The notes beneath the pieces are model-generated. The model worked only from the letters and a program-made list of their open reading frames with translations, ran no database searches and was not told where the DNA came from. A DNA stretch of 64,000 bases from Nitratireductor pacificus pht-3B (GTDB lineage Bacteria; Pseudomonadota; Alphaproteobacteria; Rhizobiales; Rhizobiaceae), in assembly GCF_000300335.1 (NCBI RefSeq), contig NZ_AMRM01000011.1, positions 1-64,000 of the forward strand, read 5' to 3'. Position 1 is the first letter of the stretch. Every line of letters begins with the position of its first letter. Made by a program: the position numbers and the translations under genes. Positions 1 to 15,083 of the stretch are shown piece after piece.

Positions 1-587
1 CCGACAAGCCGGGCATGCACGGCCCCAAGGCGACGCTGGACGAGCTGTCCTCCGTGCTGGTGCCGGAAAAGGATGGCGGCGTGCTGTCGCGCGTCGGCGT
101 GGTGGACTATTCCATCGGCAAGGGCGTTGCGCCCGGCGTCTTCGTCGTCGCCGACATGTCGCATCCGCGCATTTCGGAGCGCATGGAAGACCTGAAGATG
201 GGCAAGGGTCCCTATTTCACCTTCCACCGCCCCTATCACCTGACCTCGCTCGAGGTGCCGCTGACCTGCGCCCGCGTTGTGCTCTACGGCAAGGCGGACA
301 TGGTGCCGCTCGACAAGCCGGTCGCCGAGGTCTGCGCCGTCGCCAAGAAGGACATGCAGCCGGGCGAGACGCTCGATGCGATTGGTGAATACTGCTACCG
401 CGCCTGGATCATGACGGTGCCGGAAGCGCGCGCCTCCAGGGCGATCCCCTGCGGCCTGCTTCAGGGCGGCACGGTCACCAAGCCCATCAGGAAGGGCGAA
501 CTCATCACGTCCGACAACGCTGCCCCGCCGGCCGGTTCCAAGATCGCCGAGCTGCGCGCGCGTCAGGACAAGCTCGTTTACGGCTAG
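1..587 (+). CDS. COG4091-type dehydrogenase with C-terminal SAF domain (5'-partial)
   Basis: This is the C-terminal end of a longer protein. The frame is open from the first bases of the window, so the methionine at 15 is not a real start. The visible 190 residues match the end of the 'homoserine dehydrogenase-like, contains SAF domain' family (COG4091). Following the dehydrogenase part, residues about 100-165 (CAVAKKDMQPGETLDAIG through TKPIRKGELITSDN) have the SAF pattern of two 'G-E-x-L/I' turns also found in sialic acid synthases and antifreeze proteins. COG4091 members are predicted NAD(P)-dependent oxidoreductases acting on sugar- or polyol-derived acids; the substrate is not known here. 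About 115 bases downstream begins an E1-E1-E2 operon on the same strand, which suggests a shared catabolic pathway. Confidence 0.75.
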   Translation, partial: DKPGMHGPKATLDELSSVLVPEKDGGVLSRVGVVDYSIGKGVAPGVFVVADMSHPRISERMEDLKMGKGPYFTFHRPYHLTSLEVPLTCARVVLYGKADMVPLDKPVAEVCAVAKKDMQPGETLDAIGEYCYRAWIMTVPEARASRAIPCGLLQGGTVTKPIRKGELITSDNAAPPAGSKIAELRARQDKLVYG

Positions 588-686: not shown

Positions 687-703
687 CAGACAGGAGCGTG
701 AAT

Positions 704-1738
704 ATGTCGGCCACGGCCAGGAAGAGCGCCTCGAAAACCGAGGGCGCCAATCAGCCTTTCATCTACAGGCAGTTCGATCAGGACAAGCTGCGCGATGCGC
801 TGCGCAAGATGTATCTGATCCGCCAGTTCGAGGAGGGCGCGGAAGAAAGCTACATGCGCGGCCTGATCCATGGCACGATGCACCTGTCCATCGGCCAGGA
901 GGCGAGCGCCGTCGGCATCTGCCTCGGCCTTTCCGATGAAGACCAGATCACCTCCACGCATCGCGGCCATGGCCACTGCATCGCCAAGGGCGCCGACGTC
1001 TCGCGCATGTTCGCCGAGTTCTTCGGCAAGACGACGGGTTATTGCCGCGGCCGCGGCGGCTCCATGCACATCGCCGACGTATCGACGGGCAATCTCGGCG
1101 CCAACGGCATCGTCGGTGGCGGCCTGCCGATTGCCGTCGGCGCTGCCCTGACCGCCAAGAAGATGAAGACCGGCAATGTCGTCGTCTGCTTCTTCGGCGA
1201 CGGCGCGAACAATGAGGGCGCGTTCCACGAGGCGCTCAACATGGCGGCCATCTGGAAGCTGCCGGTCGTCTTCGTCTGCGAGAACAACGGCTACGGCATG
1301 TCCACCTCCGTGGCCCGCGCGACGGCGGTTCCCAACATCGCCGACCGCGCCGCCGCCTATGCGATGCCCGGCGTGATCGTCAACGGCAATGTCGTTTCGG
1401 ATGTGGCCGAGGCAATGCACGAGGCGAGCGAACGCGCCAGGCGCGGCGACGGTCCGACGCTGATCGAGTGCAAGACCTACCGCTATCGCGGCCACTCCAA
1501 GAGCGACCGCAACCGCTATCGCAGCAAGGAAGAAATCGAGGAGTGGATGACCGAACGCGATCCGATCGAGGCGTTCGAGGCCGAACTCGTCGAGTTCGGC
1601 GTCATCGACGCCGCCGGCATCGAGGCGATCCGCGCCGATGTCGCCCGGGAGATCGCCGCCGGCATCGAGTTCGCCAAGGAAAGCCCGATGCCGGATGTCG
1701 CCAACCTCGAAAAATACGTCTACACGGAGCAGGCTTGA
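704..1738 (+). CDS. Thiamine-dependent 2-oxo acid (acetoin/pyruvate-type) dehydrogenase E1 alpha subunit
   Basis: This 344-residue E1 alpha subunit binds thiamine diphosphate and decarboxylates a 2-oxo acid or acetoin together with the beta subunit encoded next. The ThDP motif [15 protein letters not shown] with the distal ENN lies at about residues 165-196, and the family stretch [10 protein letters not shown] at about 116-125. ATG 704 is preferred over GTG 698 because CAGGAG at 691-696 is correctly spaced for it. The gene ends one base before the E1-beta ATG, so the two are translationally linked. E1-alpha and E1-beta are separate and of AcoA/AcoB size, and the beta subunit has no lipoyl domain, unlike housekeeping rhizobial PdhB. 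An acetoin-type or dedicated complex is therefore more likely than the main PDH. Confidence 0.88.
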
Positions 1739-1739
1739 T

Positions 1740-2750
1740 ATGGATGCGCAGGTCGAGACAGCCACGCGTGAACTGAGCTACGCGCAGGCCATCCAGGAGG
1801 CCATGGCCATCGCCATGGAGCGCGACGAGCGCGTGTTCCTGATGGGCGAGGATATCGGCGTCTACGGCGGCGCGTTCCAGGTGACCGGCGACCTCGTCGA
1901 GCGGTTCGGCCCCGAGCGGGTCATGGACACGCCGATCTCGGAGCTGGGCGGCGCCGGCATCGCGGTCGGCGCGGCCGTCACCGGCATGCGGCCGGTCTTC
2001 GAGTTCCAGTTCTCCGATTTCGCGACGCTCGCCATGGAGCAGATCGTCAACCAGGCCGCCAAGATGCGCTACATGCTGGGCGGCGCCGTTTCGGTTCCTG
2101 TCGTCATGCGCTTTCCGGCCGGCTCCGGCACGGGTGCTGCCGCGCAGCACAGCCAGAGCCTGGAAGCCTGGCTCGGCCACGTGCCCGGCCTGAAGGTGAT
2201 CCAGCCGGCGACGCCGCACGACGCCAAGGGCCTGCTGCTGGCGGCGATCGAAGACCCGGACCCGGTGATGATCTTCGAGCACAAGCTGCTCTACAAGATG
2301 AAGGGCGCGGTGCCCGAGGGCTACTACACGGTGCCGATCGGCAAGGCCGATGTGCGCCGCGAGGGCCGGGACCTGACCATCGTCGCCACGTCGATCATGG
2401 TGCACAAGGCGTTGGAAGCGGCCGAGACGCTTTCCGGCGAGGGCATCGACATCGAGGTGATCGACCTGCGCACCATCCGTCCGATGGACCGGCAGACGGT
2501 GATCGAGAGCGTGCGCAAGACGTCGCGCCTGATGTGCGTCTATGAGGGCGTGAAGACGCTGGGCATCGGCGCCGAGGTTTCGGCGATGATTGCCGAGAGC
2601 GAGGCGTTCGACTATCTCGACGCCCCGATCGTGCGGCTGGGCGGCGCGGAGACGCCGATCCCCTACAATCCGGAGCTGGAAAAGGCGACGGTTCCGCAGG
2701 TGGACGGAATCGTCAGAGCGGCGCGCGACCTCGTGACGGGAGCGCGCTGA
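1740..2750 (+). CDS. 2-oxo acid dehydrogenase E1 beta subunit
   Basis: This 336-residue transketolase-like subunit pairs with the preceding E1 alpha to form the alpha2beta2 E1. Typical beta features are [12 protein letters not shown] near residue 35, the [10 protein letters not shown] region near 85, [13 protein letters not shown] near 130, and the C-terminal transketolase domain with [11 protein letters not shown] near 240. The ATG at 1740 starts right after the E1-alpha stop; an in-frame ATG 102 bases upstream lies inside E1-alpha and is rejected. There is no N-terminal lipoyl domain, which separates it from the long PdhB of many alphaproteobacteria and agrees with AcoB-like proteins. The E2 gene follows two bases after its stop. 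Confidence 0.9.
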
Positions 2751-2752
2751 CC

Positions 2753-4069
2753 ATGCCCGTCGAAGTCATTCTGCCGAAAGTCGACATGGACATGGCGACG
2801 GGCCGGATCTCGGCCTGGCTCGCCGAGGAAGGCGCGACGGTCAAGAAGGGCGACGTGCTGTTCGAGATCGAGACCGACAAGGCGGCGATGGAGATCGACG
2901 CGCCGGCAAGCGGCATCCTGCGCAACGTGACCGGCAAGGAAGGCGTCGACATTCCCGTCGGCCAGGCCGTGGCCTGGATCTACGAGGAAGGTGAGGCCGT
3001 GGCCGATGCGCCGGCTTCTGCGCCTGCCGAAGCCGTGGCCGAAGCGTCCGCAAAGGCCGAAGCGCCGGCTCCCGTTGAAACCGCAGCGCCTGTCGCGGCT
3101 GCTCCGGCGGCAACTGCAGAAGCATCCTCGGGCGTTCGCGCCTCTCCGCTTGCCCGCCGTCTGGCGAAGGAAGCTGGTCTCGATCTTTCCGCCATCGCCG
3201 GTTCTGGCCCGAAGGGCCGGATCGTCAAGGCCGATGTGGAAGCCGCCGGCAGAAATGGCGGTGCGCAAGCAGTTGCAGATGCACCGGCAGCAACCACGGT
3301 CCCGGTTGCGCCTCAGGCTATGTCCGACGACGCCGTGCTGAAGCTCTTCGAGGAAGGCTCCTACGAGCTGATCCCGCATGACGGCATGCGCAAGACCATC
3401 GCCCGCCGTCTGGTCGAGGCGAAGTCCACCATCCCGCATTTCTACCTGACGCTCGATTGCGAGATCGACGCGCTTCTGGCGCTGCGCAAGCAGCTCAACG
3501 ATGCCGCGCCGATGGTGAAGACCAGGGAAGGGGAAAAGCAGGCCTACAAGCTGTCGGTCAACGACATGGTCATCAAGGCCCATGCCAGGGCGCTAGCCAT
3601 GGTGCCGGACGCCAATGTGTCCTGGACCGAGAATGCGATGGTGAAGCACAGGCATGCCGATGTGGGCGTCGCCGTGTCGATCCCGGGTGGCCTGATCACG
3701 CCGATCATCCGCCGCGCCGACGAGAAGACGCTGTCGGCCATCTCCAACGAGATGAAGGACCTGGCCGCGCGGGCGCGCTCGCGCAAGCTGAAGGCGGAAG
3801 AGTATCAGGGCGGCAACACCGCCGTTTCCAATCTCGGCATGTTCGGCATCAAGGATTTCGCCGCCGTCATCAACCCGCCGCATGCGACGATCCTCGCGGT
3901 CGGCGCGGGCGAGAGCCGAGCCGTGGTCAAGGATGGCGCGGTGAAAGTTGCAACGGTGATGTCAGTGACCTTGTCGACCGATCACCGGGCAGTGGACGGG
4001 GCGCTGGGTGCGGAGCTTCTGGCGGCCTTCAAGCAGGTGATCGAGCACCCGATGGCCATGCTGGTGTAG
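2753..4069 (+). CDS. Dihydrolipoamide acyltransferase E2 component
   Basis: This 438-residue core enzyme transfers the acyl group from E1 to CoA through a lipoyl arm. The lipoyl domain is at residues 1-78, with the modified lysine at 43 in IETDKAAMEI. An Ala/Pro/Glu-rich linker spans 83-126. The peripheral subunit-binding domain is at 128-163 (RASPLARRLAKEAGLDL, GSGPKGRIVKADV), and the catalytic domain runs from about 205 to the end with DHRAVDG at 410-416. The two-base gap after E1-beta makes this a three-gene operon. No lipoamide dehydrogenase (E3) follows, so E3 must be encoded elsewhere. The acyl substrate cannot be read from the sequence. Confidence 0.9.
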   Translation: MPVEVILPKVDMDMATGRISAWLAEEGATVKKGDVLFEIETDKAAMEIDAPASGILRNVTGKEGVDIPVGQAVAWIYEEGEAVADAPASAPAEAVAEASAKAEAPAPVETAAPVAAAPAATAEASSGVRASPLARRLAKEAGLDLSAIAGSGPKGRIVKADVEAAGRNGGAQAVADAPAATTVPVAPQAMSDDAVLKLFEEGSYELIPHDGMRKTIARRLVEAKSTIPHFYLTLDCEIDALLALRKQLNDAAPMVKTREGEKQAYKLSVNDMVIKAHARALAMVPDANVSWTENAMVKHRHADVGVAVSIPGGLITPIIRRADEKTLSAISNEMKDLAARARSRKLKAEEYQGGNTAVSNLGMFGIKDFAAVINPPHATILAVGAGESRAVVKDGAVKVATVMSVTLSTDHRAVDGALGAELLAAFKQVIEHPMAMLV

Positions 4070-4144: not shown

Positions 4145-4831
4145 TCAGCCTTCGGCGTGCGCGCCGGCGATGAAGCCGCGCCGCGCCAGTTCGCGCTCGA
4201 CGCCCGGCCAGTCGGTGCAGATGGCATGCGCGCCAGCTTGCGTCAGTTTCTCTGCATGGCCGGAGTAAGTGTGGCTGCCGCCGGTGAAGCCGATGGCCGT
4301 CATGCCGGCTGCGACGGCTCCCTGAACGCCGAAGGGCGAATCCTCGATCACCACCGATGAGGATGGCTCGGAACCAAGCCTCTCGGCGGCGAAGAGGAAG
4401 ATGTCGGGCGCCGGCTTGCCATGCTTCACCATCGCGGTGCTGAAGACCTCCTCGCCGAAGAAGCTGGCGAGACCGGTCACCTCCAGGCTAAGCGCGATGC
4501 GCTTCATCGAGGAGGAGGAGGCGACGCAGCGCGGCCCCCGGAGGCTCTGCAGGAAGGGGAGGATGCCGCGCGTCGGCTCGAGGTCTTCGGCGAACAGCGC
4601 CTGCGTCTCCACCCAGAAGTCGCCGGTGGCGTGTTCGGGGAAGGCATGTCCGGTCAGCTCGTGAATCCGGGTGATGATGTCCGCCTGCTTCATGCCGATG
4701 CACTGGCCGACGATGTCGGTCGTGATGGTCATGCCGTGCTTGCGGTAGACGCGCTCGAAGGCGATGGCCGCCAGGGGTTCGCTGTCGACGAGAACGCCGT
4801 CGCAATCGAAGATGATCAGGGGACGCTGCAT
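4145..4831 (-). CDS. HAD-superfamily hydrolase (phosphatase / beta-phosphoglucomutase-like)
   Basis: This 228-residue HAD subfamily IA enzyme has motif I FDCDGVLVDSEP at residues 9-20 (nucleophile and acid/base aspartates), motif II in VASSSSM near 104-110, the motif III lysine in HGKPAPDIF near 137, and motif IV VIEDSPFGVQ near 162. The helical cap insert after motif I places it with sugar-phosphate phosphatases and phosphoglucomutases. It is convergent with the E2 gene and lies just before the glucitol PTS operon. A role in dephosphorylating or isomerising the PTS-imported polyol phosphate is plausible but is inference from position only. Confidence 0.82.
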   Translation of the reverse strand: MQRPLIIFDCDGVLVDSEPLAAIAFERVYRKHGMTITTDIVGQCIGMKQADIITRIHELTGHAFPEHATGDFWVETQALFAEDLEPTRGILPFLQSLRGPRCVASSSSMKRIALSLEVTGLASFFGEEVFSTAMVKHGKPAPDIFLFAAERLGSEPSSSVVIEDSPFGVQGAVAAGMTAIGFTGGSHTYSGHAEKLTQAGAHAICTDWPGVERELARRGFIAGAHAEG

Positions 4832-4879: not shown

Positions 4880-5527
4880 TCAGGCGATGGAATCGGGCGT
4901 GGCCCGCGGCGATTGCAGGGCGGCGCTGCCGGCTTCGATGGCCCGGCGCATGGCGAGCCGTCCCTCGACCAGATCGGGCGCGACCCAGTTGGGTTCGCCG
5001 CCCAGGAAGCGGTCGAGAAAGGCCACGGCGGAGGCCGGCATCTCGCGCGTATTCTCGCGGTAGGACCACCAGGTTCGCAAGTCGTCGGCACAGCGATCGA
5101 GCAGCGGCGTCTGGCCGAACTCCTGCTCGAAGATGGCGGCGATCGCGCAGACGCAGTAGTTCGTATAGAGGAAACCCTCCGGCCAGAAGCGGACGATCTC
5201 GGAGCTGGCGGCACTGCCGGTGACCGTGCTGCCCGGGCTCACGCTCGCCGGCGCCCGGCGGATCATCTCCTTCAGCGCCAGCCCGGCGGCGTAGACGATG
5301 AAATCGGCGCGGTCGAGCCGGGCGAAGTCCTTGCGGGCGTCGATCATCTCGACCCAGTCGAGGAACACGCGGGTGAGCTTTTCCTCGTCGATCTCGAACG
5401 CGACGCCGTAATGCGCCGTCACCGCCCGCGCGTTGCCGCGAAAGGTGGCGCGGAACCAGCGCAGCTGCCGCAGCCTGTGGCGCAGGTCGGGCATTACCGC
5501 CAGCTCGTTCTTGAAGTCCAGATCCAC
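4880..5527 (-). CDS. Conserved hypothetical protein
   Basis: Function not recognised. The likely product has 215 residues and starts at GTG 5527, preceded by AAAGGAG at good spacing. An upstream ATG at 5623 would add 32 residues of non-conserved character. The protein is soluble, has no signal peptide, and is rich in Trp, Tyr, Arg and Asp. It has clusters such as RFWPEGFLYTNYCVCAIAAI (middle) and LRTWWSYRENTREMPASAV (later). It follows the HAD gene's start by 48 bases on the same strand, so HAD and this gene probably form one operon with this gene first. Its position between the E1/E2 operon and the PTS operon suggests it belongs to the same island. Confidence 0.65.
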   Translation of the reverse strand: MDLDFKNELAVMPDLRHRLRQLRWFRATFRGNARAVTAHYGVAFEIDEEKLTRVFLDWVEMIDARKDFARLDRADFIVYAAGLALKEMIRRAPASVSPGSTVTGSAASSEIVRFWPEGFLYTNYCVCAIAAIFEQEFGQTPLLDRCADDLRTWWSYRENTREMPASAVAFLDRFLGGEPNWVAPDLVEGRLAMRRAIEAGSAALQSPRATPDSIA

Positions 5528-5624
5528 GTTTGCAGCTCCTTTGCGGGAATCATAGCATGCGGGCGGCAGCTTCCAATCGGATATGCCGGACCGCGGGCCA
5601 GCGCCGCTCCCATGAATATACAAT

Positions 5625-5724: not shown

Positions 5725-6168
5725 ATGGCATTGTGGCAATGGGGGCTTTTGCTCCTGGCTTTGGTCTGGGCGCTGCAGTCCTACGGGGTGTGGCTGCAGA
5801 TGCGGCACTATTCCGACGTCTTCAAAGGCATCACGCAGAAATTCACAGACGGTTATGTGGGCACGGGCGCGTTTCACGGCCGCTTCCTGAAGAAGGGCGC
5901 CATCGCCATCGTGGTCATCGCGCCGGACCTGACGGTGCGCCGCATCCTGACGATGAGCGGCCGCTCGGTCTTCGCGAAGTTCGTCCGCCACGAGGAATTC
6001 GAGGGCATGACGCTCGACCGGCTGCGCGCCGAGCCGGCCCTGTTCGGCCCTGACGCGCCGGGCCTGACGGCGGCGATCACCCAGGCGGTGGCGCAGATCG
6101 ACCGCACGCGGTCGGGCGACGAACCGCCGCTCAGGGAATCGCTGGTGGCGACCAGTCCGCAGACATGA
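5725..6168 (+). CDS. gutM: GutM-family transcriptional activator of a glucitol operon
   Basis: This 147-residue protein of the GutM/SrlM family opens with one membrane-spanning helix (ALWQWGLLLLALVWALQSYG) and then a small soluble domain (KGAIAIVVIAPDLTVRRI, ending with a low-complexity tail). E. coli GutM activates the glucitol operon; membrane anchoring is typical of the family. ATG 5725 is chosen because GGAGGAG lies just upstream; the frame extends to 5644 without a ribosome site. It is the first gene of the PTS operon, whereas in E. coli gutM follows the structural genes. The EIIC gene starts 59 bases downstream. Confidence 0.8.
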   Translation: MALWQWGLLLLALVWALQSYGVWLQMRHYSDVFKGITQKFTDGYVGTGAFHGRFLKKGAIAIVVIAPDLTVRRILTMSGRSVFAKFVRHEEFEGMTLDRLRAEPALFGPDAPGLTAAITQAVAQIDRTRSGDEPPLRESLVATSPQT

Positions 6169-6227
6169 ACGGCAAGATCCGGAGCCGGCCGAGAAGCCGG
6201 CAGGACCACTGAAGGAGAGGGAGGAAA

Positions 6228-6986
6228 ATGTCAGTCATTTCACTCATGGCGCAACACGCCGACACGGCCATGCAGGGGTTGCATATGGCCGGGTCGTTCG
6301 CTGGCGACGCCGCGCTGCATGGCAAGCTCGCCATGAAGGGGGCGTCGCATGATCTCGTCGTCCTCGCGCAGGCGAGCGGCGACATATCGGTCGAGGAGTT
6401 CCGCGAGAAGCTGAACACCGTCGCCCAGGAGGAACAGCTCGGCTGGCTCACCGCCGCCGGCAAGTACTTCATCGGCATCTTCCAGAAGGGCGGCGAGGTT
6501 TTCGCCGGCTTTGTCACCGGCATCATTCCGACGCTGGTGGTGCTGATGACCGCCTTCTACGCCATCACCGAACTGGTCGGCGAGAAGCGCGTGCACGGTC
6601 TCGCGCAGAGCGCCGGCCGCATCGCGCTCACCCGCTACACCGTGCTGCCGGTGCTGGCCGTGTTCTTCCTGACCAACCCGATGGCCTACACCTTCGGCTC
6701 GTTCCTCGAGGAGAAGCACAAGCCCGCCTTCTACGATGCGGCGGTCTCCTACGTGCATCCGCCGCTCGGCCTGTTCCCGCACATCAATCCGGGCGAGTAC
6801 TTCGTCTGGGGCGGCATTCTCGTGGCGCTGCTCGAGCTGGAGCGCACCGGCGCCGTGCCGGGCGGTTATCATATCACCGTGGCGATCTGGTACGCCATCG
6901 TCGGCCTCGGCGTGATCCTGCTGAAGGGCATGCTGACCGAGCGGATCACCGCGATCATGGCGCGCCGCCAGGGCGTTGAGCTCTAG
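6228..6986 (+). CDS. srlA: PTS glucitol/sorbitol-type transporter EIIC component
   Basis: This membrane permease subunit of a glucitol-family PTS has 252 residues. From about residue 75 it matches SrlA closely: AGKYFIGIFQKGGEVFAGFV, then hydrophobic segments, and the signature GLFPHINPGEYFVWGGI near 180-196. The first 70 or so residues have no counterpart in the roughly 187-residue E. coli SrlA and look soluble and helical (VEEFREKLNTVAQEEQLGWL). The start is well supported by GGAGAGGGAGG just upstream, so the extension is probably real. It forms the transport path with SrlE, encoded 13 bases downstream. Actual substrate specificity within the polyols is unproven. Confidence 0.92.
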   Translation: MSVISLMAQHADTAMQGLHMAGSFAGDAALHGKLAMKGASHDLVVLAQASGDISVEEFREKLNTVAQEEQLGWLTAAGKYFIGIFQKGGEVFAGFVTGIIPTLVVLMTAFYAITELVGEKRVHGLAQSAGRIALTRYTVLPVLAVFFLTNPMAYTFGSFLEEKHKPAFYDAAVSYVHPPLGLFPHINPGEYFVWGGILVALLELERTGAVPGGYHITVAIWYAIVGLGVILLKGMLTERITAIMARRQGVEL

Positions 6987-6999
6987 GGGAGGGGCGGAC

Positions 7000-8004
7000 A
7001 TGGCAAATTCATACAAGGCGGTCAGGATTTCCAAGGGCGCGTCCGGCTGGGGCGGCCCGCTGGTGATCGCACCGACGGCCGAACGCAACAAGATCGTCTC
7101 CGTCACGGGCGGCGGCATCCACCCGGTGGCCAAGCGCATCGCCGAGATGACGGGCGCGGAAGCGGTCGATGGCTTCAAGAGCCCGCCGCTGGAAAGCGAG
7201 ATGGCCGTCGTCGTCGTCGATTGCGGCGGCACGGCGCGCTGCGGCGTCTATCCGCGCAAGCGCATCCCGACCGTCAACCTGACCCCTGTCGGCCAGGCCG
7301 GGCCGCTGGCGCAGTTCATCACCGAGGACATCTATGTCTCGGGCGTCACGCCGGAGAGCATCGAGATGGCCGACGGGAGCGCTGCCGCGACGGTTGCCGG
7401 CGGCGCGGCTTCTTCGGACGGCTTTGCGGCGGCGAATGCGGCCGCTCCGGCGGAGATGCCGAGCGAGGGCGGACTGATCGGCCTGATCAGCAGCGTCGGC
7501 CGGGTGATGGGCCGGGTCGTCGGCATCTTCTTCAATGCCGGCCGGCGGACCATCGACCAGGTGGTGCGCAACGTGCTGCCGTTCATGGCCTTCGTGACCA
7601 TGCTGATCGGCCTCATCCTCTATACGGGCATCGGCGACGTGCTGGCCCAGCCGATGGGACCGCTGGCCAACAACATCATCGGCCTGCTGATCATCTCGGC
7701 CATCTGCGGCCTGCCGTTCCTGTCCCCTGTGCTCGGGCCGGGCGCGGTCATCGCGCAGGTGATCGGCGTCGCCATCATCGGTCCGCAGATCGCCAACGGC
7801 ACGATTTCGCCGGCGATGGCGCTGCCGGCGCTGTTTGCCTACAACACGCAGGTGGGCTGCGACTTCGTGCCCGTCGGCCTGGCGCTGGGCGAGGCGAAGC
7901 CGAAGACGATCGAGATCGGCGTCCCGGCCGTGCTGATCAGCCGCCAGATCATGGGCCCGGTCTCGGTGCTCATCGCCTGGCTGGTGAGCCTGGTGGTGCT
8001 TTAG
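7000..8004 (+). CDS. srlE: PTS glucitol/sorbitol-type transporter EIIB(C) component
   Basis: This 334-residue EIIB-membrane protein starts at ATG 7000 with GGGGAGGGG upstream. The N-terminal EIIB domain (1-115) carries the likely phosphorylated cysteine C75 in VVDCGGTARCGVYPRKR, which matches the position in E. coli SrlE. An Ala-rich linker (about 124-155) leads to the membrane domain (about 185-334), which includes GLPFLSPVLGPGAVIAQVIG and AYNTQVGCDFVPVGLALGE. It takes phosphate from SrlB and passes it to the incoming polyol. The gap to srlB is 71 bases and contains a GC-rich hairpin. Confidence 0.92.
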   Translation: MANSYKAVRISKGASGWGGPLVIAPTAERNKIVSVTGGGIHPVAKRIAEMTGAEAVDGFKSPPLESEMAVVVVDCGGTARCGVYPRKRIPTVNLTPVGQAGPLAQFITEDIYVSGVTPESIEMADGSAAATVAGGAASSDGFAAANAAAPAEMPSEGGLIGLISSVGRVMGRVVGIFFNAGRRTIDQVVRNVLPFMAFVTMLIGLILYTGIGDVLAQPMGPLANNIIGLLIISAICGLPFLSPVLGPGAVIAQVIGVAIIGPQIANGTISPAMALPALFAYNTQVGCDFVPVGLALGEAKPKTIEIGVPAVLISRQIMGPVSVLIAWLVSLVVL

Positions 8005-8014
8005 GAATCCGGAG

Positions 8015-8037
8015 GGGCGGCGTTGCTGCCGCCGCCC
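8015..8037 (+). other. Intra-operon hairpin between srlE and srlB
   Basis: GGGCGGCG and CGCCGCCC form an 8-bp stem with a 7-base loop, right after the srlE stop. There is no clear T-run, so it is more likely an mRNA processing or stability element, or a weak attenuator, than a strong terminator. Confidence 0.4.
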
Positions 8038-8075
8038 TTCCAACTGTTTGCATGGTGTTTTCTGGGAGTTTTTGA

Positions 8076-8456
8076 ATGCCGGTGTTTCTCAAGACGCGCA
8101 TTACCGCGATTGGACCCGAGGTGGCCGAACTGGCCGAGGGCGGCGTGCTGATCCTGTTCGCCGACGGTGCGCCCGAGGAACTCGCCGAGGTTTCGGTCCT
8201 GCACGCGACGCAGGAGGGGCCTGCCCCTGACGCGCCGGGCGCCGGCACGCCGGTCCGCGTGGGAACGGTTTCCGCAGAGATCACGGCCATGGGCGACGCC
8301 GCCTGGAACAAGGTGCGCGAGATCGGCCATGTGGTGATCAATTTCAACGGCGCCGATGCGGTGGAGCGTCCGGGCGAGATCTGCGCCTCGGAGATCGAGC
8401 CGTCCGTTCTGGTCGCCGCGCTTGAGACCGGCGCCGTCATCACCATCGGCGAATAG
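8076..8456 (+). CDS. srlB: PTS glucitol/sorbitol-type EIIA component
   Basis: This cytosolic EIIA protein of 126 residues is the usual size for SrlB. His43 in EVSVLHATQE aligns with the phosphorylated histidine of E. coli SrlB. The C-terminal part, NKVREIGHVVINFNG and RPGEICASEIEP, is characteristic of the family. It accepts phosphate from an HPr domain (here fused to Enzyme I in the next gene, 34 bases downstream) and passes it to Cys75 of SrlE. Confidence 0.9.
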   Translation: MPVFLKTRITAIGPEVAELAEGGVLILFADGAPEELAEVSVLHATQEGPAPDAPGAGTPVRVGTVSAEITAMGDAAWNKVREIGHVVINFNGADAVERPGEICASEIEPSVLVAALETGAVITIGE

Positions 8457-8490
8457 CGCCGCACGTTCACGCAGAGTATACGAGAAGCCT

Positions 8491-10464
8491 ATGGAACGCT
8501 CGACCATCGTCCGAGTGCAGGAAGGCCTGCACGCCCGACCCGCGACCCGCTTCGTGCGGCTTGCCAAGGGTTTCGAGAGCGACGTGGAAATCGTCAAGGG
8601 CGGCAAGGCCGTGAGCGCGAAAAGCTCGGTCAAGCTGATGCTGCTCGGCGTGAAGGAGAATGACGAGGTCACCATCCGCGCGGAAGGGGCCGATTCCATC
8701 GAGGCGGTCGAAGCCCTGATCGCCTATCTGGACAACCCGCTTTCCGGCGTGGAGGAGGCTCCCGCCGAGGCAGCCGCCGCGCCGGCGGTGGCGCAGCCTG
8801 CGCCGGCGGCGCGGCAGGCGGAGCCGGACCTGCCGGGCGGTCTCAGGGGCGTTCCGGCCAGCGCCGGCGTGTCGCTGGGGCCGGTGTTCGCGCATTTCCC
8901 GCCGCAGATCACGCCGCGCAACGAAACGCTTGCGCCGGCGCAGATCGGGCCTGAGAAGGCGCTGTTCGAGGATGCGGTGGCGCGTCTGCAGGAGCGGCTC
9001 GACCGGTCGCTCGCGGATGACGGCATGCAGGAGAGCGACCGTGCCATCGTCGCGGCGCTGCGCGATATCGCCGCCGATGACGCCCTGCGCGACGAGACGC
9101 TGAAGGCCATCGACGGCGGGCTCGACGCCGTTTCGGCGGTCATCGCCGCGTCGTCGCGGCTTGCCGCCGAGTTCCGCGCGCTCGACGACGCCTATCTCAG
9201 CGCCCGTGCCGAGGACCTAGACGCGATCGCCCGGCAGATCTGCCTGACGCTGCTTGGCCAGGAAGACGCGCGGCTCGACGACATCGCGGACGGCGCGATC
9301 CTGGTCGCCGAGGACATCGGCGCCTGGGACCTGGCGCGTGCGCCGCTGAAGCGCCTGGGTGGCGTGGTCTGCGGCCATGGCGGGGCAACCTCGCATGTGG
9401 CGATCATCGCGCGCACCCACGGCATTCCGGCCGTCCTCGGCCTGGGGGACGCCGTGCACGCGCTTCGCGAGGCGGACGAAGCGGCGGTGGACGGAGATGC
9501 CGGCCTTGTGTTCGCTGCTCCCGACGGCGCCACGCGCCAGCGCTTCGCCGACATGATCGGTGCGGCCAACAGGGAGAAGGAGGCGCTGAAGGCCTACAGG
9601 GACGTGGTGCCGCGCCGGGGCGACGGAACGGTCGTCCATGTGGCGGCCAATCTGGGCGCGCTCGAGGAGATCGAGGCCGCGCAGGCGGCGGGTGCCATGG
9701 GCGTCGGCCTGTTCCGCACGGAACTCCTGTTCATGCGACACATGCACCTGCCGTCCGAAGACATGCAGGCCGAGACCTATTCGGCGCTGGCGCAGGCGTT
9801 TCCCGACCACCCGGTGATCGTGCGCACGCTCGACATCGGCGGCGACAAGCCGATTGCGGGCGTCGAGTTCCCCGAGGAGGAGAACCCCTTCCTCGGCTGG
9901 CGCGGCATCCGCATGTGCCTCGACCGGCCCGACATCTTCAAGGTGCAGCTCCGGGCGCTGCTGCGCGCCGCGGTGCACGGCAATCTGCGGGTCATGCTGC
10001 CGATGGTGTCGGATGTGGACGAGGTCCGGCGCACGCGGAGGCTGATCGAGGAATGCGCGGCCGAGCTTTCCGCCGAGGGCGTGGCCCATGCGGCCTTCCC
10101 GCTCGGCGTGATGATCGAGACGCCGGCCGCCGTTTTCGGTGCGCGGGCACTGGCGAAGGAAGTCGCCTTCTTCTCCATCGGCACGAATGACCTGACGCAG
10201 TATGTGATGGCGGCGGACCGGCTGAACCCGGCCGTGGCCTCGCTCAACGACGCGGCGCATCCGGCTGTGATGGCGGCCGTCGCGCAGGCGGCGCAGGCGG
10301 CGGTGGAAGCGGGGATCGAGATCGGCATGTGCGGCGAGGCCGCGGCGCGGGAGGATCTCGTCGCCGAGTTCATCCGCATGGGGCTGACCGAGCTCAGCAT
10401 GAGCCCGGCATCGGTGCAGCGCGTGAAGAAGCAGCTTTCGGAGCTGTTCGACGCGGGGACGTAG
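8491..10464 (+). CDS. ptsI: HPr-Enzyme I fusion phosphotransferase (PEP--protein phosphotransferase)
   Basis: One 657-residue protein carries both general PTS components. Residues 1-86 are HPr, with the phosphorylated His14 in QEGLHARPATR and a regulatory-site-like serine pair at 45-46 (SAKSSVKLMLLGV). An Ala/Pro linker (about 88-115) leads to Enzyme I. The EI phosphohistidine is His302 in GGATSHVAIIARTHGIPAV; the PEP-binding part includes FRTELLFM, ETPAAVF and IGTNDLTQYVMAADR; the catalytic cysteine is C614 in GMCGEAA. ATG 8491 is chosen because HPr starts there; upstream frame is srlB-overlapping noise. As last gene of the operon it makes the system independent of other PTS carriers. Confidence 0.93.
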   Translation: MERSTIVRVQEGLHARPATRFVRLAKGFESDVEIVKGGKAVSAKSSVKLMLLGVKENDEVTIRAEGADSIEAVEALIAYLDNPLSGVEEAPAEAAAAPAVAQPAPAARQAEPDLPGGLRGVPASAGVSLGPVFAHFPPQITPRNETLAPAQIGPEKALFEDAVARLQERLDRSLADDGMQESDRAIVAALRDIAADDALRDETLKAIDGGLDAVSAVIAASSRLAAEFRALDDAYLSARAEDLDAIARQICLTLLGQEDARLDDIADGAILVAEDIGAWDLARAPLKRLGGVVCGHGGATSHVAIIARTHGIPAVLGLGDAVHALREADEAAVDGDAGLVFAAPDGATRQRFADMIGAANREKEALKAYRDVVPRRGDGTVVHVAANLGALEEIEAAQAAGAMGVGLFRTELLFMRHMHLPSEDMQAETYSALAQAFPDHPVIVRTLDIGGDKPIAGVEFPEEENPFLGWRGIRMCLDRPDIFKVQLRALLRAAVHGNLRVMLPMVSDVDEVRRTRRLIEECAAELSAEGVAHAAFPLGVMIETPAAVFGARALAKEVAFFSIGTNDLTQYVMAADRLNPAVASLNDAAHPAVMAAVAQAAQAAVEAGIEIGMCGEAAAREDLVAEFIRMGLTELSMSPASVQRVKKQLSELFDAGT

Positions 10465-10501: not shown

Positions 10502-11254
10502 TTAGGGCAGATGCGTCAGCAGGCTGTCGAAGATCGCGGCGAGATCGGCGATGGGCCGATCCGCCTGCAGGCTACGCGCCATGCGCTCGCTGCGGGCAGC
10601 GATCGCGAGTGCGGCGATCTCCAGCAGGTCTTCCGGCTCGACGTTTTCGTCGGCCGTCAGGAGCGCCGAGGCTAGGAGGCCCGGCGCGAAGCAGCGGATG
10701 CAGGCCTGCCGGCTGGCCGGTGTCGCAGGCGCCCCGTCGAGCGCCTGACGGCAGATTTCCTGAAGCAGTGCGGCCAGCACGCCGGCCATGGCGGCGCGGG
10801 CTTCGGCCGACGCCGCGCCGCGCAGCACGAGCAGGCGATGGCCGTGCCGGCGGCGCACGGCGGCGTGGGCGCCGGTGAAGAAGGTTTCGCGGATCATCGG
10901 CGGAGAATCAGTCTCCTGCGTTGCCGCCAATCGCCCGGCCACACGGTACATGTGGCGGCGGAAGGCGGTCTCTCCCTCCACCGGGTCCGGCGCGAAATAG
11001 CCGGCGAGCGGACGGAGGTCATGCGCGCCGATCCGGGGGCGGGGCAGCACCGCATGCGAGACGGATTCGGCGAGGGTCAGCGTGTCGTCGACGACGCTGA
11101 CAGCGCGGCCGATGACGCCCTCCACCTCGGACAAGCGCCCCCGCGGCCGAATCGGCAGGCGCTGGTCGTGGCGGTGCGCGCGCAGAAAATCGCGCATGTC
11201 GCGCAAGCGGTCCTTAAGATGAACCGCCATCTCTTCTGAAGCGTCTCTAAGCAT
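10502..11254 (-). CDS. Uncharacterised protein next to the SorC regulator
   Basis: Function not recognised. The predicted product has 250 residues and starts at ATG 11254 with GAGGA nine bases upstream. It is soluble, Ala/Arg/Leu-rich and probably mostly helical, with no signal peptide or membrane helix. Visible stretches include LKDRLRDMRDFLRAHRHDQ near the N-terminus and a helical C-terminus (LLEIAALAIAARSERMARSL). It is convergent with the PTS operon (37-base gap) and divergent from the SorC gene (135 bases). That position suggests a function or regulation linked to the PTS island, but nothing in the sequence says what it does. Confidence 0.6.
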   Translation of the reverse strand: MLRDASEEMAVHLKDRLRDMRDFLRAHRHDQRLPIRPRGRLSEVEGVIGRAVSVVDDTLTLAESVSHAVLPRPRIGAHDLRPLAGYFAPDPVEGETAFRRHMYRVAGRLAATQETDSPPMIRETFFTGAHAAVRRRHGHRLLVLRGAASAEARAAMAGVLAALLQEICRQALDGAPATPASRQACIRCFAPGLLASALLTADENVEPEDLLEIAALAIAARSERMARSLQADRPIADLAAIFDSLLTHLP

Positions 11255-11389: not shown

Positions 11390-12406
11390 ATGGCGAAGGA
11401 TCGAAAGCAGGCGAAGGGCGGGAACGGCTCGGGAGAAATCGCCGTCGCGTCGCCTAGGGGCGGCGTGATCGGCAACAAGGCCGACCGCCTGCGCGTGCGC
11501 GCCGCCTGGATGTATTTCGTCGAGCAGAAGACGCAGAACGAGATCGCCGAGATCCTCGGCATCGGCCGGGTCAGCGTGGTGCGCATGCTGGCCGAGGCGC
11601 GCTCGCGCAACGAGGTCAAGATCACTATCGAGGGGGATCTGGCGGAGATCACCAGCATCGAGCGGGCGCTCGAGGAGCGTTTCGGCCTGGAACGCGCCGT
11701 CGTGGCGCCGCTGTCGCAGGCCGGGGCCGATCCGATCCCGGCCATCAGCGCGGCAACCGGCAGTTTCGTTTCCGACGTCATGGAGGCGGGCATGTCGGTC
11801 GGCGTCGGCTGGGGGCGCACCCTGTTCGGCTCGCTGCCCTTCATCCGCGCCCGTCCGCTGGCCGATTTCAAGGTGATCTCGCTGCTCGGCGGCGTCGGCG
11901 TGGCGCGGCGGTTCAACCCGGCGGAGTTCGCCTGGCGCTTTGCCCGCGCCTTCCAGGGGGACGGCTACCTGATCCCGGCGCCGGCCGTCGTCGACAGCGT
12001 GGAGACGAAGACGGCGCTGATCGAACGCTGCGGCCTGCACGAGATCCTGACGCTCGCCGACACGCTGGACGCCGTGCTGGTCTCGGTCGGCGGCATCGCC
12101 TCGGCGACCACCTTCTATCGCGGCGGCTATCTGAGCGAAGGGGTGCGCGAAGCGCTGTCCGGCGAAGGCGCGGTCGGCGACATCCTCTATCATTTCTACG
12201 ACCGCGACGGCGCGCTGGTGAACCACCCGATCAACGACCGGGTCATGTCGGTCGATGTCGACAGGCTGCGCCGGGCGCGCATGCGCATCCTGACCTCCGG
12301 CGGCGCCGACAAGATCGATGCGCTGATCGGCGCGATGAAGCTCGTCGAGCCGACCGTGTTCATCACCGACGAGGAAAGCGCCCGACAGGTCCTGGCGCTG
12401 GCCTAG
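11390..12406 (+). CDS. SorC-family sugar-responsive transcriptional regulator
   Basis: This SorC/DeoR-type regulator has about 338 residues. The N-terminal helix-turn-helix is at about 30-70 (MYFVEQKTQNEIAEILGIGR then VSVVRML). The C-terminal sugar-phosphate-binding domain shows the family marks ISLLGGVGVA, PAPAVVDSVETKTAL, VSVGGIA and DRVMSVD. ATG 11390 is preferred; GTG 11384 two codons upstream is also possible, with GGGGGAAGG at 11371-11379. SorC members sense phosphorylated sugars or polyols and control nearby transport operons (sorbose, erythritol, deoxyribonucleosides). It is the obvious candidate regulator of the PTS operon 5.7 kb upstream. Confidence 0.88.
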   Translation: MAKDRKQAKGGNGSGEIAVASPRGGVIGNKADRLRVRAAWMYFVEQKTQNEIAEILGIGRVSVVRMLAEARSRNEVKITIEGDLAEITSIERALEERFGLERAVVAPLSQAGADPIPAISAATGSFVSDVMEAGMSVGVGWGRTLFGSLPFIRARPLADFKVISLLGGVGVARRFNPAEFAWRFARAFQGDGYLIPAPAVVDSVETKTALIERCGLHEILTLADTLDAVLVSVGGIASATTFYRGGYLSEGVREALSGEGAVGDILYHFYDRDGALVNHPINDRVMSVDVDRLRRARMRILTSGGADKIDALIGAMKLVEPTVFITDEESARQVLALA

Positions 12407-13438: not shown

Positions 13439-13568
13439 CATCAATACAGTCCGATTTTCCGTTTCCATTGGGACGGGCCCGCCCCTACATTCCGGCCAAA
13501 GGGCGCGCTGCCCGCTTGCGCGGCGCATTGTGTGCCATCGAAGCCAATTTCCAGGGAGCCAAGCACCC

Positions 13569-15083
13569 ATGAGCATCAAGACCGAGACGAGCGACATCCT
13601 GAAGCGGCTGGGCGTCGATCCGAAGACCCTGTCCGGCGGCGACCTTGCCGTCCGCACCCCGGTGACGGGCGAGCAGATCGCCGAGATCGCCTCCATCTCC
13701 GCCGCCGAGACCGGCGCGGTCATCGACCGGGCGCACGAGGCGTTCAAGGCCTGGCGCGACGTGCCGGCGCCGCGCCGCGGCGAACTGGTGCGCCTTCTGG
13801 GCGAGGAACTGCGCGCGGCGAAGGACGATCTCGGCCGCCTCGTTTCGATCGAGGTGGGCAAGGTCCGCTCCGAGGGCCTCGGCGAGGTGCAGGAGATGAT
13901 CGACATCTGCGACTTCGCCGTCGGCCTGTCGCGCCAGCTCTACGGCCTGACCATCGCCACCGAGCGGCCGGGCCACCGGATGATGGAGACATGGCATCCG
14001 CTCGGCGTGATCGGCATCATCTCGGCCTTCAACTTCCCGGTCGCCGTATGGTCGTGGAACGCGGCGCTGGCACTGGTGTGCGGCGACAGCGTGGTGTGGA
14101 AGCCTTCGGAGAAGACGCCGCTGACGGCGCTCGCCTGCGCGGCGATCTTCGAGCGCGCCGCCAAGCGCTTCGGCGCCGATGCGCCGGCCAATCTGATGAC
14201 CGTGATCATCGGCGACCGCGCGGTCGGCGAGGTGCTGGTCGATCACCCCAAGGTGCCGCTGGTTTCTGCCACCGGCTCGACACGGATGGGCCGCGAAGTG
14301 GGGCCGCGCCTTGCGAAGCGCTTCGCCCGGGCGGTTCTGGAACTGGGCGGCAACAATGCCGGCATCGTCTGTCCCTCGGCCGATCTCGACATGGCGCTGC
14401 GCGCCATCGCCTTCGGTGCCATGGGCACCGCGGGTCAGCGCTGCACGACGCTGCGCCGCCTGTTCGTGCATGATTCTGTCTACGACGCGCTGCTGCCGCG
14501 CCTGCGCAAGGCCTATGGCTCCGTTTCCGTCGGCAGCCCGCTGGCGACGGACGCGCTGGTCGGTCCGCTGATCGACAAGGCGGCCTTCGACAACATGCAG
14601 AAGGCGCTTCAGGCCGCCAAGGAACTGGGCGGCACGGTCACCGGCGGCGGCCGCTTCGACAGCGGCGATGCCGATGCCTACTACGCCCACCCGGCCCTGG
14701 TGGAGATGCCGAAGCAGGATGGCGTGGTGCTCGAGGAGACCTTCGCGCCGATCCTCTACGTGATGAAGTACAGCGATTTCGACGCGGTGCTCGAAGAGCA
14801 CAATGCCGTGGGCGCCGGCCTCTCGTCGTCGATCTTCACCACCGACATGCGCGAGGCGGAGGAGTTCCTGAGCGCCCGTGGTTCGGATTGCGGCATCGCC
14901 AACGTCAACATCGGTACCTCGGGGGCCGAGATCGGCGGCGCGTTCGGGGGCGAGAAGGAGACGGGCGGCGGCCGCGAATCTGGTTCCGACGCATGGAAGG
15001 CCTATATGCGCCGCGCCACCAACACGGTGAACTACTCGAAGGCCCTGCCGCTGGCGCAGGGCGTGTCATTCGACATCGAATAG
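13569..15083 (+). CDS. amaB: ALDH7-type dehydrogenase (2-aminoadipate 6-semialdehyde / piperideine-6-carboxylate dehydrogenase)
   Basis: This antiquitin-type aldehyde dehydrogenase of 504 residues most likely oxidises 2-aminoadipate 6-semialdehyde in lysine breakdown. The catalytic Cys292 is in GTAGQRCTTLRR and the general base Glu258 in VLELGGNNAG. The C-terminal stretch GTSGAEIGGAFGGEKETGGG followed by RESGSDAWKAYMRR is near-diagnostic for ALDH7. ATG 13569 follows CAGGGAG. A LysR gene lies upstream and a strong terminator follows 20 bases after the stop, so it is probably transcribed alone. Other lysine catabolic genes are not in view. Confidence 0.88.
   Translation: MSIKTETSDILKRLGVDPKTLSGGDLAVRTPVTGEQIAEIASISAAETGAVIDRAHEAFKAWRDVPAPRRGELVRLLGEELRAAKDDLGRLVSIEVGKVRSEGLGEVQEMIDICDFAVGLSRQLYGLTIATERPGHRMMETWHPLGVIGIISAFNFPVAVWSWNAALALVCGDSVVWKPSEKTPLTALACAAIFERAAKRFGADAPANLMTVIIGDRAVGEVLVDHPKVPLVSATGSTRMGREVGPRLAKRFARAVLELGGNNAGIVCPSADLDMALRAIAFGAMGTAGQRCTTLRRLFVHDSVYDALLPRLRKAYGSVSVGSPLATDALVGPLIDKAAFDNMQKALQAAKELGGTVTGGGRFDSGDADAYYAHPALVEMPKQDGVVLEETFAPILYVMKYSDFDAVLEEHNAVGAGLSSSIFTTDMREAEEFLSARGSDCGIANVNIGTSGAEIGGAFGGEKETGGGRESGSDAWKAYMRRATNTVNYSKALPLAQGVSFDIE

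Follow-up and report, generated by a model that had tools for sequence, protein, structure and literature searches.

A glucitol-family phosphotransferase operon linked to DXR-II and a pyruvate dehydrogenase-like complex in Nitratireductor pacificus: a candidate route for methylerythritol catabolism

Results

The first 64,000 nucleotides of contig NZ_AMRM01000011.1 of Nitratireductor pacificus pht-3B (RefSeq assembly GCF_000300335.1), hereafter the window, contain a five-gene operon at positions 5725-10464 that encodes a phosphotransferase system (PTS) of the glucitol/sorbitol (Gut) family. The operon opens with a GutM gene (5725..6168, + strand; Pfam GutM 68 bits, above the cut-off), which has a GGGAGG-like site upstream of its start at 5725. 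On the same strand follow genes for an SrlA-type EIIC (6228..6986; EII-GUT 206 bits), an SrlE-type EIIBC with Cys75 (7000..8004; EIIBC-GUT_N and EIIBC-GUT_C 240 and 138 bits; NF049924 449 bits against a cut-off of 400), an SrlB-type EIIA with His43 (8076..8456; PTSIIA_gutA 88 bits) and a 657-residue fusion of HPr to Enzyme I (EI) with His14 in the HPr part and His302 in the EI part (8491..10464). The HPr domain and the N-terminal, mobile and C-terminal domains of EI were all found above the Pfam cut-offs in this single open reading frame (ORF), which also scored 430.6 bits with the NCBIfam model PTS_I_fam (cut-off 341.7). The initial annotation of this DNA, made from its letters, had proposed this operon and these four phospho-relay residues. 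Both were borne out by the Pfam matches and by the starts at 5725, 6228, 7000, 8076 and 8491, which reproduce the numbering of His14, His302, His43 and Cys75. The presence of GutM, EIIC, EIIBC and EIIA with a phosphorylatable His and Cys places the system in the Gut family, and its domain content supports the view that it is complete and self-contained, with its own HPr-EI fusion.

A chance arrangement was ruled out, since all five proteins score above Pfam cut-offs and their order recurs in other genomes. The fusion contains neither a GAF nor an EIIA domain (Pfam). A GAF domain would have pointed to the regulatory PTS (PTS-Ntr), and its absence rules out that the fusion belongs there. The host genome (4.47 Mb in 51 contigs) also carries an ordinary PTS-Ntr, with a GAF-EI protein adjoining an aspartokinase-like ORF (judged by eye) and, at a second site, HPr, EIIA-Man and the HprK C-terminal domain together. 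At the stricter level of NCBIfam, SrlA and SrlE each passed one equivalog cut-off and missed the TIGR cut-offs, and SrlB and GutM remained far under theirs. SrlA has an N-terminal extension of ∼74 residues (window 6228-6449; the family match begins at residue 74-75), and in 17 of 19 relatives the alignment with SrlA covers this extension from its first residue; the EIIC genes annotated in Bacillota are shorter than the SrlA gene of the window.

The operon had at first been described as a self-contained system. It forms part of a larger conserved cluster, which occupies the window from its left edge up to position 12406. At the left edge, which is also the contig start, a frame open to the edge (3..587, +) encodes a type II 1-deoxy-D-xylulose 5-phosphate (DXP) reductoisomerase (DXR-II, also called DRL; DRL_cat 95.7 bits, with a SAF domain) from about residue 245 to the C terminus. 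Against the Brucella DRL structure 3UPL this part gave 333 bits over 187 residues (249-435 of the structure). The start of contig C12 carries residues 2-125 of a DRL other than the second genomic copy (see below). Next to the DXR-II gene lie genes for the E1alpha subunit of a pyruvate dehydrogenase (PDH)-like, thiamine diphosphate-dependent dehydrogenase (698..1738, +; E1_dh 301 bits), an E1beta subunit without a lipoyl domain (1740..2750, +; Transket_pyr and Transketolase_C; PRK09212 411.7 bits, cut-off 321) and an E2 dihydrolipoamide acetyltransferase with lipoyl, E3-binding and catalytic domains (2753..4069, +; TIGR01349 474.6 bits, cut-off 445). Among the loci examined from named genomes, the closest match was in a Nitratireductor metagenome-assembled genome (MAG; L114), with 97% identity over the visible part of DRL and 92% in SrlA.

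To place this cluster among related bacteria, we used genomes of the same order. SrlE (PF03612) was found in 20 of 397 genomes and 12 of 142 genera, a rare and patchy distribution that agrees with the rarity claimed initially. In 19/19 relatives the best matches to the five PTS genes were co-linear on one strand. A single open frame covers HPr and EI in 18 of the 19; in the exception, G085 (L046 6414-8368), no common frame joins them, owing to a gene split or a frameshift. When all examined loci with both HPr and EI matches are considered, 40/41 have the fusion.

E1alpha was present within the same stretch in 15 of the 20 PTS-bearing genomes (14 relatives and the window). One further genome (G309) carries DRL-E1alpha-E1beta-E2 on the PTS contig, with DRL ∼14 kb from SrlE. 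In two others (G248 and G209) the assembly is broken inside E2: the PTS contig ends within this gene, and the rest of it, with E1 and DRL, borders the end of a different contig. The DXR-II model PF21135 matched 209/397 genomes of the order and 19/20 PTS genomes, and in the 20th (G162, 58% complete) a partial DRL was seen where a contig begins. Co-occurrence alone was set aside as a linkage argument, as PF21135 is widespread and also matches DLO-type relatives. We therefore relied on adjacency and on diagnostic residues.

According to the accessible text of PMC3847144, true DXR-II is set apart from two look-alike families, with positions 121, 229, 250 and 320 as sites of functional divergence and 191, 193 and 229 as inhibitor anchors. 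Full-length similarity to verified DXR-II was seen for the DRL of relative L029, which matched the Brucella DRL end to end with 713 bits. Among 106 DRL proteins from examined loci, Gly121, Lys191, Lys193, Thr229, His250 and Arg320 were kept in 67/67 E1-linked copies, and the same six residues in 21/21 FGGY kinase-linked and 4/4 PTS-only copies. In the window's own DRL, His250 and Arg320 fall inside the aligned visible part, residues 1-248 lying outside the window. As controls, four distant oxidoreductase loci (35-37% identity) were analysed with 8 kb flanks. Position 229 is Ile or Pro in these and position 193 is Leu or Glu, and within the flanks none had a match to E1, SrlE or a kinase. Two of the controls, the distant SAF-domain relatives of DXR-II L156 and L157, lie within rfbF/rfbC/SDR sugar-nucleotide clusters, a hint on the function of the DLO families.

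A tree was built from 113 DRLs. Linkage to E1 was spread over its deep branches, comprising Priestia, three Rhodospirillales or unclassified alphaproteobacterial MAGs, Acetobacteraceae, Burkholderiaceae and Rhizobiales. Most copies without recognised neighbours, including Brucella-type copies and second copies of Mesorhizobium, were nested in one E1-rich clade. This suggests, for a tree built by a quick method that has some long branches and needs 10 changes of the E1 label, that the catabolic linkage discussed below is old and the biosynthetic use of DXR-II derived.

The E1 subunits were next compared between clusters. The window E1alpha has 64-81% identity to E1alpha of 33 alphaproteobacterial and burkholderial clusters and 53% to that of Priestia, as compared to 39-41% to the PDH E1alpha of its own genome; for E1beta and E2 the identities to the own-genome PDH are 46% and 68%, respectively. 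The thiamine diphosphate motif is intact. One residue is kept in ≥97% of cluster rows at 150 columns of E1alpha, 88 of them common to canonical PDH, and at 144 columns of E1beta, 96 of them common to it (59 rows for E1beta; motif recovered in 58/70). On these identities, the cluster E1 forms a lineage of its own that accompanies DXR-II, with the acetyl-carrying E2 having stayed nearer to PDH. Since E1 diverged from PDH more than E2, a different substrate delivering the same acyl group fits. Identities are used here because an E1beta tree, from which five rows were left out, placed Priestia with canonical PDH on long and possibly false branches and was set aside. A putative E1beta active-site marker, Gly after Ser-Glu-x-Gly, was dropped because it occurred in only 48/58 sequences. 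Of the curated models, the PDH models for the E1beta subfamily and for E2 were both passed and PDH_E1_alph_y was narrowly missed (384.1 bits, cut-off 393.85); the acetoin dehydrogenase models of NCBIfam gave only a partial E2 match (108.4 bits, cut-off 307). An E3 gene adjoins the genome's own PDH; some other clusters carry their own LpdA and some also LipA. On a Rhizobium plasmid (L145 18817-24026) a thiamine biosynthesis operon adjoins the cluster; E1 uses thiamine diphosphate as its cofactor, and DXP is a thiazole precursor.

The linkage was also followed outside the order, starting from the best 80 of at least 431 DRL relatives in named genomes, a sample biased by its ranking with a divergent alphaproteobacterial query. 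Both flanks reached at least 9 kb at 62 of these loci, and E1alpha was found in 32 of the 62: in 18 together with SrlE, in six together with a PfkB kinase and in eight with neither. In four of these eight (L075, L079, L083 and L106), HPr-EI or the genes for the HAD and helical proteins described below lie just inside the end of the stretch. The entire cluster is present in two Burkholderiales (L061 and L093). In other Rhizobiales and relatives, an ABC importer and a PfkB kinase replace the PTS beside the same DXR-II-E1-E2 genes. For example, Agrobacterium plasmid pAtCFBP7129b has the order SorC - ABC importer - PfkB kinase - DXR-II - E1alpha - E1beta - E2 - LpdA - LipA, and S. meliloti pRM41A and R. 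sophoriradicis pCC511_1 resemble it but for details. As a PTS imports and phosphorylates its substrate and an ABC importer with a kinase does the same in two steps, both versions probably have the same first product, a phosphorylated sugar alcohol that is passed to DXR-II.

In the plasmid collection, where eight Bacillota appeared among 60 matches listed of 111, all five examined Bacillota loci had DXR-II together with a Gut PTS. Listeria monocytogenes and L. innocua have the order SorC - DXR-II - GutM - SrlA - SrlE - SrlB; Ligilactobacillus has DXR-II - SrlB - SrlA - SrlE - GutM - SorC - FSA aldolase - transketolase; and in the unannotated Enterococcus raffinosus record DXR-II lies with SrlA, SrlE and SorC matches. 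On one plasmid, Priestia aryabhattai combines E1alpha, E1beta, E2, LpdA, SorC, DXR-II and an FGGY kinase with a Gut PTS that has a stand-alone HPr and no EI. A second, Gat-type PTS (EIIC and IIB, in some cases with IIA) stands beside the Gut PTS in L066 (7454-9691), L145 (2679-4939) and L147 (16815-19013), and in L154 and L167 a Gat-type PTS stands beside DXR-II without E1. The Gat-type PTS may perhaps serve a stereoisomer and share the HPr-EI fusion.

With respect to other reductoisomerases, no DXR-I match was obtained in the window genome (a control search was positive in 9/14 genomes), and DXR-I was present in 2/20 PTS genomes. The window genome does have a second DXR-II, located on contig C2, which is complete and around which neither E1 nor a PTS nor a kinase gave a match. 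This copy could serve isoprenoid synthesis.

The remaining genes were characterised from Pfam scans of 20 ORFs that lie in the window between 15 and 21733, and from NCBIfam scans of 15 of these. Between E2 and GutM two genes lie on the reverse strand. The first (4145..4831, -) encodes a HAD-family hydrolase, probably a sugar-phosphate phosphatase, which reached no equivalog cut-off and occurs in 14/19 relatives. The second (4880..5494, -; the ORF may start at 5623) encodes an all-helical protein conserved in 17/19 relatives. It has no Pfam or NCBIfam match, and its AlphaFold model (pLDDT 91.9) had no match in the PDB at E ≤ 0.001, for which reasons an MtlR-like label was dropped. Downstream of the fusion, a protein without Pfam or NCBIfam match (10502..11254, -) has homologues with 28-38% identity in 10/19 same-order relatives. 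It is followed by a SorC/DeoR-family regulator with a sugar-binding domain (11390..12406, +; ORF from 11321; Sugar-bind 173 bits), which is found in 17/19 relatives and for which DeoR and LsrR were the top NCBIfam models, both below cut-off. Further to the right, an L-piperidine-6-carboxylate dehydrogenase gene (13530-15083, +; 819 bits, cut-off 730) with an adjoining LysR regulator is apparently unrelated to the cluster.

Discussion

The recurring association of a Gut PTS with DXR-II and an acetyl-transferring complex calls for a function that involves all three. We consider it probable that the operon provides uptake for a cluster that degrades 2-C-methyl-D-erythritol (ME) or a 2-C-methyl tetritol very similar to it. 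Phosphate from phosphoenolpyruvate (PEP) would be relayed by the HPr-EI fusion via SrlB and SrlE, so that ME and PEP would be converted to 2-C-methyl-D-erythritol 4-phosphate (MEP) and pyruvate. DXR-II running in reverse would then convert MEP and NADP+ to DXP and NADPH, and the E1/E2/E3 complex would turn DXP, CoA and NAD+ into acetyl-CoA, glyceraldehyde 3-phosphate and NADH. In the latter reaction E1alpha and E1beta, with thiamine diphosphate, would split DXP as acetoin dehydrogenase splits acetoin, the two-carbon unit passing via the lipoyl arm of E2 to CoA, and the housekeeping PDH would lend its E3. MEP or DXP is probably the signal to which the SorC-family regulator responds.

The import step is proposed because the sorbitol PTS of Salmonella reportedly transports ME, as stated in the title of a 2004 paper by Testa and co-workers. 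The DXR reaction is reversible. DXP is an acyloin of which the first two carbons form an acetyl group, and an acetyl-yielding cleavage fits this structure. PDH reportedly forms 1-deoxy-D-xylulose from pyruvate and D-glyceraldehyde (PMC3424233, as far as its accessible text goes). Among the open-access papers listed by our searches, none has a title or opening lines of an abstract that describe the use of such a cluster to degrade ME or DXP; subscription papers fell mostly outside this search, and the absence is therefore weak evidence. Overall, we see an even chance that this is a new pathway, consisting of 2-C-methyl tetritol import, reversal of the committed step of the MEP pathway and a DXP dehydrogenase (acetyl-transferring), and that DXR-II was catabolic first, with the Brucella-type biosynthetic copies that replace DXR-I recruited later.

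Several observations weigh against ME catabolism. The equilibrium of DXR favours MEP. The best curated models for E1alpha and E1beta are those of PDH, which makes pyruvate a possible substrate, and the DXP made in vivo by wild-type E. coli PDH is described, in the accessible part of PMC3424233, as insufficient to stand in for DXS. In five genomes that are 98-100% complete (G336, G085, G188, G264 and G372), no DXR of either type was found besides the cluster DRL, which must therefore also work anabolically there. Furthermore, 30 of the 62 full-flank DRL loci lack E1alpha, 20 of them having an FGGY kinase (one also a PfkB kinase) and 10 no recognised neighbour, and no E1/E2 was found near the PTS in the four Bacillota loci other than Priestia. 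Such E1-less cases (Listeria, Ligilactobacillus, Enterococcus and the FGGY-linked DRLs) call for a different outlet for DXP or for a function of another kind. The 20 FGGY-linked loci, two of which (L064 and L053) have, by eye, ABC sugar-transporter genes, may represent a further route into MEP or DXP; two Phyllobacterium plasmid copies of DXR-II (L137 and L164) do not fit either, having ABC sugar-transporter genes and no E1. Within the order, three PTS genomes depart from the pattern. In G210 the PTS and DRL are far apart with no E1 match near either, and in G155 E1-E2 accompany the PTS but DRL and a distant DRL relative lie on other contigs without E1. In G104 the PTS is intact and DRL and E2 persist only as fragments, side by side (L163 11967-12596); no other DXR of either type was found in this genome, and its cluster has probably decayed. 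Finally, the diagnostic residues have their limits: Ala121 occurs in 3/14 DRLs without a recognised neighbour, Gly121 is unspecific as it is present in 3/4 controls, and one control keeps His250 and Arg320 as well.

The specificity of a Gut PTS is unreadable from sequence. The substrate could thus be another branched or deoxy polyol (2-C-methylthreitol, apiitol, hamamelitol or a 1-deoxyalditol), with an analogous reverse DXR-II step and cleavage of a 1-deoxyketose phosphate by E1/E2, and the Gat-type PTS in some clusters may import a second stereoisomer or sugar alcohol. Yet the examined DXR-II residues are intact in every E1-linked copy, and an acetyl-transferring E1/E2 would fit a 1-deoxy-2-ketose, which apiitol and hamamelitol would not be expected to give. 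We regard these substrates as unlikely.

Rather improbable, in our judgement, is a salvage function in which the PTS imports ME for isoprenoid synthesis via the MEP pathway, DXR-II is biosynthetic and E1/E2 is an extra PDH. The lack of DXR-I in the window genome and the five near-complete relatives with the cluster DRL alone speak in its favour, as do Listeria strains with DXR-II, a PTS and MEP-pathway genes, the latter incomplete in L. innocua (PMC13001223, in the text available). However, ME imported as MEP would make DXR needless, the window genome has the second complete DXR-II elsewhere, and E1/E2 would have no role. In addition, according to the accessible text of PMC3847144, DXR-II occurs in bacteria without any other enzyme of the MEP or mevalonate (MVA) pathway, such as Finegoldia, where its activity was confirmed, and Anaerococcus likewise has DXR-II and no other MEP enzyme.

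An ordinary sorbitol (glucitol) PTS that adjoins unrelated genes by accident is very doubtful: the families of GutM, SrlA, SrlE and SrlB and the one equivalog cut-off passed by each of SrlA and SrlE would suit it, but the DXR-II linkage recurs in Alphaproteobacteria, Burkholderiales and Bacillota, mostly with E1/E2, SrlB and GutM lie far under the NCBIfam cut-offs and SrlA and SrlE under the TIGR ones, and no sorbitol-6-phosphate dehydrogenase was recognised in the cluster. The glucitol-type label given at first therefore stands for the protein family but not for a sorbitol utilisation system, as the 20 scanned ORFs, to which the search for SrlD was confined, contain no short-chain dehydrogenase/reductase (SDR) gene of the SrlD type.

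If ME catabolism is correct, it would bear on the distribution of DXR-II. In its accessible text, PMC3847144 calls DXR-II redundant, with a scattered distribution that no tested ecological trait explains save a link to animal pathogenicity, a view that is repeated in the available text of a 2026 review (PMC13001223). The former text was searched for the terms sorbitol, phosphotransferase, genomic context and pyruvate dehydrogenase, and none of them occurred. A catabolic role would account for this scattered, "redundant" occurrence. It predicts a novel enzyme activity and, for rhizobia and their relatives, a carbon source not described before. Plants accumulate ME and ME glucosides (PMC11192765) and 2-methyltetrols are isoprene-related aerosol compounds (PMC11868990), to go by the parts of these sources that are available; soil and leaf bacteria would thus be tied to the breakdown of plant ME, its glucosides and isoprene-derived 2-methyltetrols.

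The system can be set beside several known ones. The enterobacterial srl/gut operon has the order srlAEBD-gutM-srlR-gutQ. The window operon shares with it the GutM, SrlA, SrlE and SrlB families and the phospho-relay residues, and differs in its own HPr-EI fusion, its SorC-family regulator, the attached DXR-II and E1/E2 genes and the lack of a recognised SrlD-like gene. The fructose PTS of Rhodobacter uses an IIA-HPr-EI multiphosphoryl protein and is thus another case of a dedicated fused phosphocarrier in an alphaproteobacterium; the fusion described here lacks EIIA and serves a PTS of the Gut rather than the Fru family. In the MTA-isoprenoid shunt of Rhodospirillum rubrum, DXP likewise arises outside DXS; the carbon source is a different one, and neither a RuBisCO-like protein nor a cupin was found among the 20 window ORFs scanned with Pfam. 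With the Brucella DXR-II/DRL (3UPL/3UPY; PMC3847144) the cluster enzyme shares its family and probably the reaction, and the E1-linked copies of other loci share the diagnostic residues as well. The accessible text of that paper treats DXR-II as an enzyme of isoprenoid biosynthesis only, whereas we propose the reverse, catabolic direction. Lastly, the E1alpha/E1beta/E2 architecture and thiamine-dependent acetyl transfer to CoA are those of acetoin dehydrogenase (AcoABC) and pyruvate dehydrogenase, from which the cluster complex would differ in an E1 lineage tied to DXR-II and in its proposed substrate, the phosphorylated acyloin DXP.

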